In this document: positions 9,992-14,090 of the stretch, one piece after another
Position numbering within the stretch: the stretch's first letter is position 1
Layout: each line of letters starts with the position of its first letter
IMG/VR virus record: IMGVR_UViG_3300032265_000080
Location: 1-29,297 of that record
Direction: 5' to 3' (one strand)
Origin: a virus
Length of the DNA: 29,297 nucleotides
Notes under the pieces: model-generated
What the model was told of the DNA's origin: nothing
Databases searched by the model: none
Seen by the model: only the letters and a program-made list of their open reading frames with translations
Program-made: the position numbers and the translations under genes

Positions 9992-10642
9992 ATGGCAACA
10001 ATCATCAATAATCGTTCGAACCTAACGACCGATCCACTACGTAACTTTAGGTTCTTGGTTACGTTCACACCTCTAGACTCAACCAACACAACCATGTCGG
10101 CTTTGTCTAGCGCAACAATGGGGTTCACCTCGGTATCAGGACTATCAGTTGCTACTGATGCTATCCCTTACCGTGAAGGTGGCTACAACACCACTGTTCA
10201 CCAGATCCCTGGTCAGACAACATTCACACCGTTGACCCTTCAGCGTGGTGTAATGCTCGGCACAAACCGTAACTGGGAGTGGATGCGTAACATGTTCGCT
10301 ACAGTTGGCGGCGGCGGATCTACCCGTGGTGTTGATAAGAACTTCCGTTGCAACATTGACATCAAAGTTCTTGCTCACCCAATCCCTGCAGCAGGTTCAG
10401 AAGATGCAACACAGGTCCCAGTAGATAGCCGCATCACAACAACAGCATCAACTGATGTTGTAGCGATGCAGTTCCGTGTCTACAACGCATGGCCAACCGC
10501 TGTTGCTTACTCAGACCTCAACGCAGGTGACAACGCTCTACTCGTAGAGCAGATGACCCTCGTGCATGAAGGTTTCAACATCGCATGGGGTAACTCAAAT
10601 AGCATCGCTACAAGTGCAGATCCAGCAGTCCTAGGCGCATAA
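9992..10642 (+). CDS. Tail tube protein (T4 gp19-like)
   Basis: This 216-residue protein shows the gp19-family layout: DPLRNFRFLVTF at residues 14-25, GFTSVSGLSVATDAIPYREGG near 44-65, PGQTTFTPLTLQRGV near 73, and an NWEWM helix near 95. AAGGAG lies upstream of the ATG. It stands just after the sheath gene, as in most contractile tails. A longer middle section (residues 130-170) than in T4 gp19 is probably a surface loop. The product stacks in hexameric rings to form the inner tube. Confidence 0.95.
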   Translation: MATIINNRSNLTTDPLRNFRFLVTFTPLDSTNTTMSALSSATMGFTSVSGLSVATDAIPYREGGYNTTVHQIPGQTTFTPLTLQRGVMLGTNRNWEWMRNMFATVGGGGSTRGVDKNFRCNIDIKVLAHPIPAAGSEDATQVPVDSRITTTASTDVVAMQFRVYNAWPTAVAYSDLNAGDNALLVEQMTLVHEGFNIAWGNSNSIATSADPAVLGA

Positions 10643-10659: not shown

Positions 10660-11472
10660 ATGACGAACACAATCTCAGCAGCGGCTAATCCCGCATTGGC
10701 AAATGACTTGATCAACAAAGCCTTGGCTTCTACACAGGAGCCAGAAGGCGACGTTAATATCCTTTTTCCGATGGACACAGTAGTGAACCTTCCTGGCGGT
10801 TATCTAACCACCGCTGGGGAGGTCATTACTCAGGTCGAGGTAAGAGAACTTAACGGCAATGACGAAGAGGCAATCGCTCGTGCTGCCAACGTCGGACGAG
10901 CAATCCTTACCGTTCTTCAACGAGGAACTGTTAAGGTAGGAGATCAAAAGGTAGATGACAACCTACTAGATAACCTGCTCTCTGGAGACAGAGATGCAAT
11001 CATCTTGGGAATCATTAAGACAACCTTTGGAAGAATCGCAGAACTCAAGGCTTATTGTTCTGGGTGCGATGAGGTCAAAGATGTTGCCATTGATCTTGAC
11101 GAAGATATCAAGACCACAGTATTGGCTGACCCAATCAACGATCGAGTCTTTACCGTGAAAGGAAAGAAGAACGTTTATACCGTTCAACTTCCAACAGGCA
11201 GTACACAGAAGGAACTCTTGCTCAACCAAGAAAAGACCTCAGCAGAATTAAACACAATTCTTCTTGAGGGCACTATCTTGAAGATCAATGAGTCCCCAGT
11301 ACTGAGCAAGATTCAAGTACAGCAGTTAGGAATGGTTGACCGCAAGTTGATCAGCACTGAGATCACTAAGCGTGTTGTAGGGCCAAAGTTTAATGACGTC
11401 GTTGTCACATGCCCTGACTGTGAAGGAGAGGTACTGGTTCCCGTTAATTTCGGGACCTTGTTTCGCTTTTAA
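10660..11472 (+). CDS. Tail assembly chaperone / T4 gp26-like baseplate protein
   Basis: This 270-residue protein has VEVRELNGNDEE near residue 59 and LLSGDRDAIILGIIKTTFG near 106, the pattern of the T4 gp26-type family (Pfam 'T4 bacteriophage base plate protein'). Two CxxC pairs, C133/C136 and C251/C254, probably form one zinc site. In phages of this layout, between tube and tape measure, this protein is the counterpart of lambda gpG and chaperones the tape measure. Its stop (UAA) follows UUU, and a +1 slip there would extend it by 52 residues (see 11393-11629). AAAGGA precedes the ATG. Confidence 0.85.
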   Translation: MTNTISAAANPALANDLINKALASTQEPEGDVNILFPMDTVVNLPGGYLTTAGEVITQVEVRELNGNDEEAIARAANVGRAILTVLQRGTVKVGDQKVDDNLLDNLLSGDRDAIILGIIKTTFGRIAELKAYCSGCDEVKDVAIDLDEDIKTTVLADPINDRVFTVKGKKNVYTVQLPTGSTQKELLLNQEKTSAELNTILLEGTILKINESPVLSKIQVQQLGMVDRKLISTEITKRVVGPKFNDVVVTCPDCEGEVLVPVNFGTLFRF

Positions 11473-11629
11473 TACCACGCCCTATCTGGACTTAGTTTCA
11501 GAGTGGGCAATATTGACCTCCGAATACCAAGGCTGGTCACTAACAGATATAAAGTTATTAACGCCAAGAGAACGAACGAACTGGATAGAGATAGCCAGGT
11601 TCCAAAACAGAAGGAGAAACGGTGGCTGA
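11393..11629 (+). CDS. Frameshift extension of the tail assembly chaperone
   Basis: This reading frame overlaps the end of the chaperone gene by 80 bases and has no ribosome-binding site before its only ATG (11393). The protein-like part begins after the upstream stop: PYLDLVSEWAILTSEYQGWS, then LLTPRERTNWIEIARF, a helical pattern typical of the second part of tail-chaperone fusions. It lies in the +1 frame relative to the upstream gene. I infer expression as a fusion of 322 residues, 10660-11469 joined to 11471-11629, through the slip site at 11464-11472. Independent translation from 11393 cannot be excluded. It ends eight bases into the tape-measure gene. Confidence 0.6.
   Translation: MTSLSHALTVKERYWFPLISGPCFAFNTTPYLDLVSEWAILTSEYQGWSLTDIKLLTPRERTNWIEIARFQNRRRNGG
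11464..11472 (+). other. Candidate +1 ribosomal frameshift site
   Basis: The codons are CGC UUU UAA followed by U. Because four U's run together (11467-11470), Phe-tRNA on UUU can move one base forward and re-pair perfectly with UUU, placing AAU instead of UAA in the A site. A slow stop codon after a slippery P-site codon is also the logic of the prfB +1 frameshift. Confidence 0.55.
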
Positions 11630-14090
11630 CGAGTTAAGTAACATTCAGTCACTTTCGTCTGCCGTTGATTCGTTAACTCAAAAAGTTAATGAACTCTACG
11701 ACGCTGTCTCCAGGGTCAAGGGCGTAGCAGGCGCCACCATCACAGATGTCAAGGGCATGATCAACACCCAAGGCGGACAAATTGGCCTTGGTAATGCAGC
11801 CCGTATGCAGATGCCTACACAGGCTTCGTTCTCTTATATTCCTGGCAATCAACAACAGGGTAACTTCCTAACCAACTCTTTAAGTAACTTCTCATCAGAA
11901 GGAACTGCCATGAGTGGTGGTCGTTCTCGTGGTGATGCTGCTGCTGCAACTGTTGCAGATAACCTGTTTACGGCTGAAGCCAGTGGTGGCGGTGGTGGCG
12001 GTGGCGGAAGTTTATTCACTAAAATTACTGGCGTAAACCCAGTAGGTGCTGGAGAGTACTTTGCACAAGGCATGGCAAAAACGGCTGCTGGTATCGCTGT
12101 TGCCGCATTTGGCGCTATGCCAGATACCAGCCTTACTCTGCAACGTGACATCGGATACTACCAAGCATCACTTACTGCTGGTCGTAACGCTAACCGTGGC
12201 AACATTGAACGTGCCAGCCTTAAAGCATTAGGTAATGGGCTATCTGGTGTGGGTAGCGATGTTATTGCTGCAAACATTCTTACCTCTAGAGGGTATACCG
12301 CAGGAAGCCAAAATTATCTCTCAGCAATGGGTGAAGTTGGTGGAGCATATAAGAACCTAGGAATCGATAATGGAGCAGCAGCCGCCGCTATTGCTGGGCT
12401 ACATTCGGGCGCAACAAGCGCACAAATGTATGGCTTGGGTATCAGCACCTACGACGCTAAAACGGGTAAACAACGTTCTGTTGCCGAGATCTCTAGAGAT
12501 TTAATGAACCGCATGACGGGCGGCCGTAAAGACGTCACCGTTCAAGATATCAACAACTCATTACAGATGGGCTTTTTAGGTGCAAACCTCCAAGCCTCTG
12601 GATTAGATCAAGCAACTCAAGACATGATTGTTGCATCTATGCGCAATCAAGTTCAAGGGGGAAGCGGAGAACTCAACCAAGGCAACACATCATATGGTGG
12701 AGAAAAGAATAAGAACACTGTATTAAACGACACAGGCCGAATGAACGCTTCAACAACCGATGTCATGCAGGCAGCAACGGGTGGAATGGTTGCTGGTTTT
12801 CATGCTGCAACAGCCACTGTAGTTGCTTTAAATAAACTTCTTGAAACAGTAGCACCTATCCTCGGTTCTGTTAAAGGATTTACAAGTGGTGTAATGGGCT
12901 CTAACATCGGTCAAGGCCTTGTAGATGCTGCGCCTATCTTTAAGAGTGCTGCAGATGACTTCTTAACAGCAGTGCATGATGCAACAAGTGGTGGAGGTAC
13001 CTCTGGTTATGGCGCAGCCTTTGGCGTAAAGGGCGGAGCAGCGCCAGTTGCGGCTGCGGCAGGTGCAGCAATCACTGCTGGCTATGGCGCTACCGACGGA
13101 AACATGTGGGCTAGTACCAACGGTAAGCACACAGGCATTGACTATCAGATGCCAATCGGTACCCCTGTAAGCGCACGAATGAGCGGTAAGGTAATACAAG
13201 TTGACCTTAATGCTGATTACGGCAAATCTATTTTAATTGAAAACTCTGAAACAGGACTTCAAACCCTTTATGCACACCTTAGTGAAGAGTCAGTAAAGGT
13301 TGGAGACCTAGTTACTGCAAACCAAATCATCGGTAAGTCAGGTGACACAGGTAATGCTAGTGGTCCACATCTACATTACGAAGTACGCAACGGCAAAAAC
13401 AACCCTGTAGATCCAAAAACAATTAGTTCAGGTGGAATGCTTTCTGCTGCGTTAGGAAGCGGCAATACAATGTCACTTCTTTCCGCATCGACTCCGTTAC
13501 CAGGGGCCGCAGGCAATATTAGCGGCGCTTCCACAACTGGTGGATCACTTCCAGCAAATGCTGATTCAAACCTAGTTTCTATCCTTACTCAAGCAGGATT
13601 TAGTGGTTCAGGGTTGGCTACCGCTTATGCTGTTGCTAAGGCTGAATCAGGTGGTAGAGCCACGGCGTACAACGGAGATACAAAAACTGGAGATCAGTCC
13701 TATGGGCTATTCCAAATCAATATGCTGGGTGCATTAGGGCCCGATCGTCGTAAAAGATTTGGGCTGTCTAGTAACCAAGATCTTCTTGATCCTGCAACAA
13801 ACGCCAAAGTCGCATACACCATGTCGCATGGAGGAACTAATTGGGGACCTTGGTCTACCTACACCAATGGTTCTTACAAACAGTTCCTAGATAAGCCTTC
13901 AACTGGTGGAGGAACCTCTGGCTATGGTGGCGCAGGCCTTGGTGGAAGTACCACTGGTTCTGTAGTCAATAACTTTAATATGCCGATTACATTACAGACT
14001 GGCAATGATGCTGAACTTATGCGTGTTGCCAAAAAGATTCAAACGCTTATTAGTAACACACACGACATTTCTGCGATGGGAGCCTCTTGA
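11622..14090 (+). CDS. Tail tape measure protein with M23 and lytic transglycosylase domains
   Basis: This 822-residue protein starts at GTG with AAGGAG upstream. The N-terminus has a helical segment (residues 5-35), then a poly-Gly linker near 125 and long Ala-rich, mobile-looking helices. A M23-type metallopeptidase follows at about 495-600, with zinc ligands H503 and D507 (HTGIDY) and H585 (HLH), plus H552 (YAHLS). A soluble lytic transglycosylase-type domain lies at about 650-765, with E675 in KAESGG and YGLFQIN after it. Such domains let the tail tip cut peptidoglycan during DNA entry. The size and place between chaperones and hub genes mark it as the tape measure. All catalytic residues are present. 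Confidence 0.92.
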   Translation: MADELSNIQSLSSAVDSLTQKVNELYDAVSRVKGVAGATITDVKGMINTQGGQIGLGNAARMQMPTQASFSYIPGNQQQGNFLTNSLSNFSSEGTAMSGGRSRGDAAAATVADNLFTAEASGGGGGGGGSLFTKITGVNPVGAGEYFAQGMAKTAAGIAVAAFGAMPDTSLTLQRDIGYYQASLTAGRNANRGNIERASLKALGNGLSGVGSDVIAANILTSRGYTAGSQNYLSAMGEVGGAYKNLGIDNGAAAAAIAGLHSGATSAQMYGLGISTYDAKTGKQRSVAEISRDLMNRMTGGRKDVTVQDINNSLQMGFLGANLQASGLDQATQDMIVASMRNQVQGGSGELNQGNTSYGGEKNKNTVLNDTGRMNASTTDVMQAATGGMVAGFHAATATVVALNKLLETVAPILGSVKGFTSGVMGSNIGQGLVDAAPIFKSAADDFLTAVHDATSGGGTSGYGAAFGVKGGAAPVAAAAGAAITAGYGATDGNMWASTNGKHTGIDYQMPIGTPVSARMSGKVIQVDLNADYGKSILIENSETGLQTLYAHLSEESVKVGDLVTANQIIGKSGDTGNASGPHLHYEVRNGKNNPVDPKTISSGGMLSAALGSGNTMSLLSASTPLPGAAGNISGASTTGGSLPANADSNLVSILTQAGFSGSGLATAYAVAKAESGGRATAYNGDTKTGDQSYGLFQINMLGALGPDRRKRFGLSSNQDLLDPATNAKVAYTMSHGGTNWGPWSTYTNGSYKQFLDKPSTGGGTSGYGGAGLGGSTTGSVVNNFNMPITLQTGNDAELMRVAKKIQTLISNTHDISAMGAS
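12990..13012 (+). repeat. Linker repeat flanking the enzyme cassette, copy 1
   Basis: A 23-base segment encoding GGGTSGYG matches 13905-13927 in 21 of 23 bases. The two copies bracket the M23 and transglycosylase domains of the tape measure. Confidence 0.75.
13905..13927 (+). repeat. Linker repeat flanking the enzyme cassette, copy 2
   Basis: Second copy of the GGGTSGYG-coding segment, directly after the transglycosylase domain; see 12990-13012. Confidence 0.75.

Follow-up and report, generated by a model that had tools for sequence, protein, structure and literature searches.

A conserved UUU_C site with an upstream hairpin points to a programmed +1 frameshift in a T4-like phage tail chaperone gene

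Introduction

The tail assembly chaperone pair G and GT is produced through a ribosomal frameshift, which is -1 in lambda, -2 in Mu and probably +1 in HSTV-2. Between the tail tube and tape-measure genes of a single virus record of 29,297 bases, the whole of which is called the window here, lies a chaperone gene of the T4 gp26-like family whose 3' end is overlapped by an open +1 frame. This raises the question of whether the overlapping frame is translated as an extension of the chaperone and, if so, at which codon the ribosome would change frame. A preliminary description of the window had proposed a forward slip on the UUU UAA that ends the gene, with the run of four U's as its key feature. 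Here, we address the question by comparing the junction with those of related virus and bacterial loci.

Results

Gene order and relatives of the chaperone locus

The genes of interest follow one another in the order tail sheath, tail tube, gp26-like chaperone, overlapping +1 frame and tape measure, so that the chaperone does lie between tube and tape measure, as first described. The tail tube gene (9992..10642; all window features given here are on the plus strand) matches PF06841 (gp19, E 8e-28). It is followed by the gene for a gp26-like tail/baseplate-hub assembly chaperone (10660..11472), whose zero-frame product of 270 aa falls into PF12322 and phrog_150 (baseplate hub). The match to PF12322 (T4_baseplate, gp26-like; E 9.8e-11) scores 42.2 bits and exceeds the family cut-off of 24.5, as do those of two relatives, L046 and L053. 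The tape-measure protein (11611..14090; PF01551 and SLT domains, phrog_4070 tape measure) has its own ribosome-binding site, AAGGAG at 11611-11616, and a GTG start at 11622 (CDS 11622-14090), and overlaps the end of the +1 frame.

IMG/VR was queried with the chaperone, with its alignment and with three relatives, which gave over a hundred loci; to these were added phage records (Streptomyces phages BRock, GiJojo, LuckySocke, Alone3 and pSt2308) and nine loci from bacterial genomes (Streptomyces, Saccharothrix, Terracoccus and a MAG). One HMM run on all virus loci yielded 166 loci with a chaperone gene, of which 164 supply the 118 distinct junctions counted below. A plasmid search returned no relative, and a DNA-level search among phages returned short matches to the tube gene only. 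The records of the isolated relatives examined either annotate two separate proteins or omit the second, and none of these is marked as frameshifted. Among open-licence papers we found no report of the chaperone junction, an absence that is weak evidence.

UUU_C, rather than the terminal UUU UAA, is the conserved site

The chaperone gene ends in TTG TTT CGC TTT TAA, with the zero-frame stop at 11470-11472, and to this extent the preliminary description was correct. Its proposed check, conservation of the U-run in relatives, nonetheless pointed elsewhere: the terminal codon and the stop vary, and an earlier UUU_C is kept instead. TTT precedes the stop in only 16 of the 118 distinct junctions; TTC (58), CTC (18), CTA (10) and others take its place, further examples being CTG, CAG, ATC and GGC, before TAA, TAG or TGA. 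The stop itself is TAA in 68 junctions, TAG in 37 and TGA in 13, and in the Streptomyces phages and most prophages it lies one codon further on with UUU_C unchanged. Most of the pre-stop codons of relatives would re-pair poorly after a +1 step. Because the pre-stop codon, the stop and the position of the stop all vary, a slip at UUU_UAA cannot be the common mechanism, and the family does not show the prfB-type arrangement of a slippery codon directly before a stop held in the A site. In one relative, L035, TAT replaces the zero-frame TAA, which lengthens the product by 10 codons; UUU_C and the +1 frame are retained.

In the window, UUU_C occupies 11461-11464, two codons upstream of the zero-frame stop, and consists of a TTT codon (11461-11463) and the first base of the A-site codon CGC (11464-11466). 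A TTT followed by a codon that starts with C was found in 164 of the 166 virus loci with a chaperone gene (118 distinct junctions). The two remaining loci belong to huge phages, L125 and L126, and closer inspection of L126 shows TTT CTA, six codons upstream of the stop, with the +1 frame open. The distinct junctions read TTTCGC (41), TTTCGA (25), TTTCAG (22), TTTCGT (14), TTTCAA (11) or TTTCGG (5), such that the A-site codon is CGN in 85/118 and CAR in 33/118. Eight of the nine bacterial-genome loci likewise carry TTT_C, followed through as CGC, CTC or CCG, the last two in some prophages. Only the C is therefore common to the A-site codons, which include CAR, CTC and CCG as well. Since UUU and UUC are both read by tRNA-Phe, a slip at UUU_C can be the common mechanism, and the site would allow P-site re-pairing in the +1 frame. 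The two proposals predict different junction proteins in the window, namely ...LFAFNTT after a slip at UUU_C and ...LFRFNTT after a slip at UUU_UAA.

All four bases of UUU_C are present in 76 of 76 representatives, which were picked among motif-bearing loci. Among the columns with at least 80% identity in a set of 30 representatives, the slip-site Phe alone shows no codon change at all (TTT 30/30); in the remaining conserved Phe columns TTT and TTC stand at 25/4, 21/7 and 23/2. The pattern is sharpest in GC-rich members, whose other Phe codons are TTT/TTC 0/11 (L050), 0/8 (L128) and 0/9 (L129). At 61-68% GC the slip-site TTT is often the only TTT of the gene, and it is the sole TTT in the reading frame of L168, L169, L171, L172, L173 and L175. 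Multiplying the per-gene TTT frequencies gives about 1e-20 over the 76 representatives, a figure that is too strong because the representatives are related, and 1e-3.4 over the eight most divergent. Where the A-site codon encodes arginine it is CGN in 52 of 52 representatives and AGR in 0/52, against an AGR share of 29% among Arg codons elsewhere in the genes. Comparison of these sequences indicates that TTT at the slip site is under selection, and the site has the features of the PAX-like kind: UUU_C in frame, a preference for CGN in the A site and an open +1 frame. A rare A-site codon was considered as a general explanation and rejected. CGC, CGA and CAG make up 0.6%, 0.5% and 1.5% of codons in the window; a slow A site is not obvious, because CGC is not a particularly rare codon and CAG/CAA are frequent there.

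The +1 frame evolves as a coding sequence and lacks a common start

The +1 frame that follows the slip site (11465..11629, beginning GCT TTT AAT ACC) encodes 54 residues up to a TGA at 11627-11629, and the predicted fusion translates to 322 aa. As the preliminary description held, this frame remains open past the zero-frame stop as far as the tape-measure gene, whose GTG it overlaps. Among the 36 closest pairs, differences at the three codon positions of the +1 frame amount to 0.26, 0.17 and 0.47, and the frame contains 0 stops, compared with means of 4.2 and 4.8 for the remaining two. Relatives share the core xGW[ST]LxEIKxLSxRERxNWL, in which W25, R36, R38 and W41 of the extension are invariant. 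The downstream frame is thus conserved and bears the mark of protein-level selection, a pattern indicating that its openness is not due to chance and that it evolves as coding sequence.

The lack of a ribosome-binding site for this frame, also claimed at the outset, was borne out in the window, where none of the candidate starts (ATG 11393, TTG 11402, GTG 11420 and TTG 11513) has a Shine-Dalgarno sequence. Across relatives the candidate starts sit at differing places; the stretch ahead of the conserved core contains no ATG, GTG or TTG in 36 of 131 distinct junctions, and an SD-like 4-mer precedes at least one candidate start in only 17/131. An independent start for the +1 frame was accordingly rejected for many relatives. 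Many also have a +1-frame stop a few codons ahead of the slip site, which restricts entry into the frame to the vicinity of that site. Under the +1 model, two peptides are expected for Streptomyces phage BRock: NLYSEYEQLVDGYPGWSLAEIK from the extension and a junction peptide that ends ...GILFANSNYK.

A hairpin abuts the E-site codon

A stem-loop predicted to stimulate the +1 slip lies at 11436..11457 (arms 11436-11443 and 11451-11457). Its 3' arm ends at -4 and leaves a 3-nt spacer, the E-site codon, before UUU. Across the family, the 27 nt before UUU have a mean MFE of -7.8 kcal/mol, compared with -4.0 for shuffles among synonymous codons, which preserve both the protein and the codon usage of each gene. 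Combined over sequences, the Stouffer z is -12.3 for 76 representatives (90% clustering), -10.1 for 44 (70%) and -3.8 for the eight most divergent (55%); these values ignore phylogeny and overstate the evidence, because the relatives are not independent. Further upstream, to 150 nt, windows reach a z of at most about -4.7, and strong excess stability is confined to the slip-site position. The eight bacterial-genome loci together with the 484-kb phage L126 give a hairpin z of -6.4, the L126 hairpin being CGCAUCC-CGUU-GGAUGCG AAC UUU C. For the window by itself the comparison with synonymous shuffles is marginal (p 0.06), and the case for a hairpin consequently rests on the family.

Base pairing was assessed in 63 sequences, a set from which sub-groups without the hairpin were mostly left out. 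In it, 81.8% of cells are paired, compared with 74.8% after shuffling and 26-59% when the stem is slid; double changes in the stem number 40 against 20.6 shuffled, and the covariation score is 0.277 against 0.179. The pair -19/-10, which joins the third positions of two codons, occurs as U-A, G-C, C-G and A-U, is Watson-Crick in 52 of 76 representatives (20.7 expected), and changes state at least 28 times on the protein tree, with many nearest pairs switching both sides. In some members the stem register is shifted by one. Not every sub-group has a stable stem immediately 5' of the E site: the hairpin is weak or absent in L045/L147/L156, L143 and L128, though UUU_C is retained, and for this reason it cannot be strictly required. 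The spacing from hairpin to E site is similar in distant members of unrelated sequence (the window, L126, L171 and L173).

Other local signals were also sought. The 60 nt downstream (11474-11536 in the window, and its counterparts in relatives) are more structured than synonymous shuffles, with z about -6, and some relatives have long hairpins there (L006 -27.0 and L010 -29.8 kcal/mol). These structures share no register and RNAalifold finds no consensus among them, on which ground a downstream stimulator common to the relatives was rejected. No internal Shine-Dalgarno sequence was seen beside the slip site at the prfB spacing. A conserved SD-like GAGGU does occur about 29 nt ahead of it, within GAG GTA at 11428-11433 of the window (-33 to -28), where 73 of 76 representatives have G as the last base of GAG and 56/76 have GTA; it is too distant for the known +1 Shine-Dalgarno effect.

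Predicted folds of the two products

The chaperone and the extension were modelled separately with AlphaFold2, using alignments of the window and related virus loci only. The chaperone model (pLDDT 87) matches the HK97 tail assembly chaperone 2ob9 best (VIA Z 7.2, 3.7 A over 89 residues), followed by YqbN 3klu (Z 7.1, 3.0 A over 83), both matches lying within residues 25-127. A Z under 8 is not decisive alone, and these two stand clear of the other rows: a third match, 5ir0, has a Z of 4.7 over residues 161-243, and the rest reach 2.8 or less. Against viral models, the chaperone matched T4-like baseplate-hub assembly proteins (best E 4e-18).

For the extension, the model (pLDDT 87) is a three-helix domain, with helices at 8-21, 27-31 and 35-53, in keeping with the earlier expectation of a helical segment. 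Foldseek found weak matches, none better than E 0.25, among them the C-terminus of a tail assembly chaperone and gp51-like proteins; because of this weakness the gp51 link is a lead only. Of 17 chains compared with the extension in VIA, none exceeded Z 2.6, a result of little weight for so small a helical domain.

Separate-gene forms in distant relatives

In clusters from Saccharothrix and Streptomyces (L177-L180), which from their family names we read as actinobacterial contractile-injection-like, a T4-like chaperone is followed by a DUF6760 gene in the -1 frame (L177 1510-1665 on the minus strand; L178 1489-1638; L179 1489-1644; L180 1492-1650). The frames suggested a -1 frameshift in these clusters, a candidate rejected on finding that the downstream gene has its own GGGGGAA Shine-Dalgarno sequence and an ATGA/GTGA start overlapping the chaperone stop. 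The extension scores at best 15.6 bits against the DUF6760 Pfam model, below the cut-off of 27, and profile comparison gives an hhalign E of 9e-4 with a probability of 23%; homology between DUF6760 and the extension is thus suggestive only. Apparently the same two protein modules are adjacent in both settings, as separate coupled genes with a strong Shine-Dalgarno sequence in the injection-like clusters as opposed to a putative frameshift pair in the phages studied here. The two modules therefore seem to occur in both forms. A strong ribosome-binding site for the second frame, which the preliminary description had named as evidence against a fusion, was found in these distant clusters alone and in none of the phages related to the window.

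Two further distant chaperone relatives lack UUU_C. In the 595-kb phage L125, a downstream small protein could start at an ATG immediately past the stop, and L176 (Streptomyces sp. AP-93) has no homologous +1 frame.

Discussion

Our comparative analysis strongly supports a conserved programmed +1 frameshift in a phage tail chaperone. The initial proposal of a chaperone fusion made by +1 frameshifting gains in this way, and its slip on UUU-UAA gives way to another site. Very probably, the chaperone gene is read by a programmed +1 slip at UUU_C, aided by a hairpin adjacent to the E site, to give the 270-aa chaperone and a minor fusion of 322 aa. In the mechanism that we infer, which extends to the slippage itself, its efficiency, the effect of the hairpin and the role of the two products, P-site tRNA-Phe would re-pair from UUU to UUC, one base forward, and the hairpin would refold against the ribosome's rear, favouring the forward slip while the A-site codon waits. 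The 3-nt spacer would hold the E-site codon, with the stem acting as the internal Shine-Dalgarno duplex does in prfB. The major product would be the chaperone and the minor product the fusion that carries the helical extension.

This mechanism agrees with earlier cases. Influenza PA-X is made by a +1 shift at UUU_CGU through re-pairing from UUU to UUC (PMC3498833), and a wider UUU_C class with a preference for CGN was proposed in 2012 from PA-X and other eukaryotic viruses (Firth 2012, PMC3498833). The phage junction shares the UUU_C site with CGN in the A site, but belongs to a bacterial virus, has a conserved 5' hairpin, allows CAR, CTC and CCG in the A site and does not have UCC as its E-site codon. 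In prfB-type +1 frameshifting, the internal Shine-Dalgarno sequence has a spacer of 3 nt (PMC5009743). Here too a duplex that would favour the +1 shift abuts the E-site codon with a 3-nt spacer; unlike in prfB, it would be an mRNA hairpin and not an mRNA-16S rRNA duplex, the A site would hold a sense codon and not UGA, and the slip would occur on UUU_C and not CUU_U. Designed hairpins beside the E site stimulate +1 frameshifting in yeast (Cho 2013, PMC3639245) and raise it in an E. coli 70S system (Huang 2018, PMC6321510), where the strongest reached about 60% of the Shine-Dalgarno effect, and only without RF2 at a CUUUGA site (PMC6321510). Like these, the phage hairpin would refold directly 5' of the E site; those were engineered reporters, whereas the phage junction would be a natural and conserved case. 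On balance, we think it probable that a natural hairpin replaces the prfB Shine-Dalgarno duplex at a PA-X-type UUU_C in viruses that span freshwater phages, phages and prophages of Streptomyces, and a phage of 484 kb.

Several other explanations must be weighed against this one. A prfB-like slip at UUU, made while the A site holds the UAA stop, would suit the window and the minority of relatives that end in TTT TAA, where re-pairing would be perfect; the scarcity of TTT among the codons seen before the stop, the displacement of the stop by one codon in the Streptomyces phages and most prophages while UUU_C stays, and the loss of the stop in L035, which still has UUU_C and the +1 frame, together make it highly improbable. 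Overlapping coding constraint or codon bias, as the only source of the TTT and of nearby conservation, is scarcely credible: TTT is indeed common in AT-rich members (180 TTT and 103 TTC in the window), but GC-rich members strongly prefer TTC and yet keep TTT at this one position, and in many members stops close the +1 frame ahead of the slip site, which leaves double coding unable to fix the slip-site base.

The downstream frame might also be translated as a separate small protein, by its own initiation or by termination-reinitiation, with no fusion made. The DUF6760 genes, with their overlapping starts and strong Shine-Dalgarno sequences, the ATG just past the chaperone stop of huge phage L125 and the separate ORF annotated in Streptomyces phage records all lend this some colour, but it leaves the invariant TTT_C and the hairpin unexplained and must contend with the shifting positions of the candidate starts and the many junctions that have no canonical or SD-preceded start; we regard it as very unlikely. 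A milder alternative accepts UUU_C as the site and takes the hairpin to be incidental, reflecting mRNA stability or pausing, with frameshifting stimulator-free. PA-X and certain tailed phages are thought to be without a stimulatory signal (PMC5009743), some sub-groups here do without the hairpin, and the downstream 60 nt are also more structured than synonymous shuffles, in no shared register. Against this stand the nearly constant placement of the hairpin against the E site in four members of unrelated sequence and the restriction of strong excess stability to the slip-site position within the 150 nt tested upstream, and we consider an incidental hairpin unlikely. The preferred reading remains a +1 slip at UUU_C assisted by the hairpin.

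If this reading is correct, the junction is a widely conserved +1 case that pairs the UUU_C class with a type of hairpin so far shown to be stimulatory in designed constructs, and offers a natural setting in which to test how mRNA structure behind the ribosome pushes it forward. It would also correct the annotation of sequenced Streptomyces phages, in which two separate proteins are listed or the second is missed, and it hints at a relation between T4-like and lambda-like tails. The T4-type gp26 and a gp51-like partner might then be a split version of the G/GT pair apparently missing from T4.

By analogy, and judging from position and modelled fold, the chaperone and its predicted fusion resemble G and GT. 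A chaperone-like fold is combined with a place between tube and tape measure, in the order tube, chaperone, tape measure, and a frameshift close to the 3' end of the chaperone gene would add a short C-terminal helical extension. The two products would, on the same analogy, bring tube subunits to the tape measure. The systems differ in that the shift here would be +1 at UUU_C with a 5' hairpin, not -1 on a heptamer, and in the chaperone family, here the T4 gp26-like one of contractile tails, for which the records examined annotate no frameshift. The chaperone model itself comprises two chaperone-like halves, residues 25-127 (similar to 2ob9 and 3klu) and 161-243 (similar to 5ir0), and the protein has two invariant CxxC pairs, C133/C136 and C251/C254.
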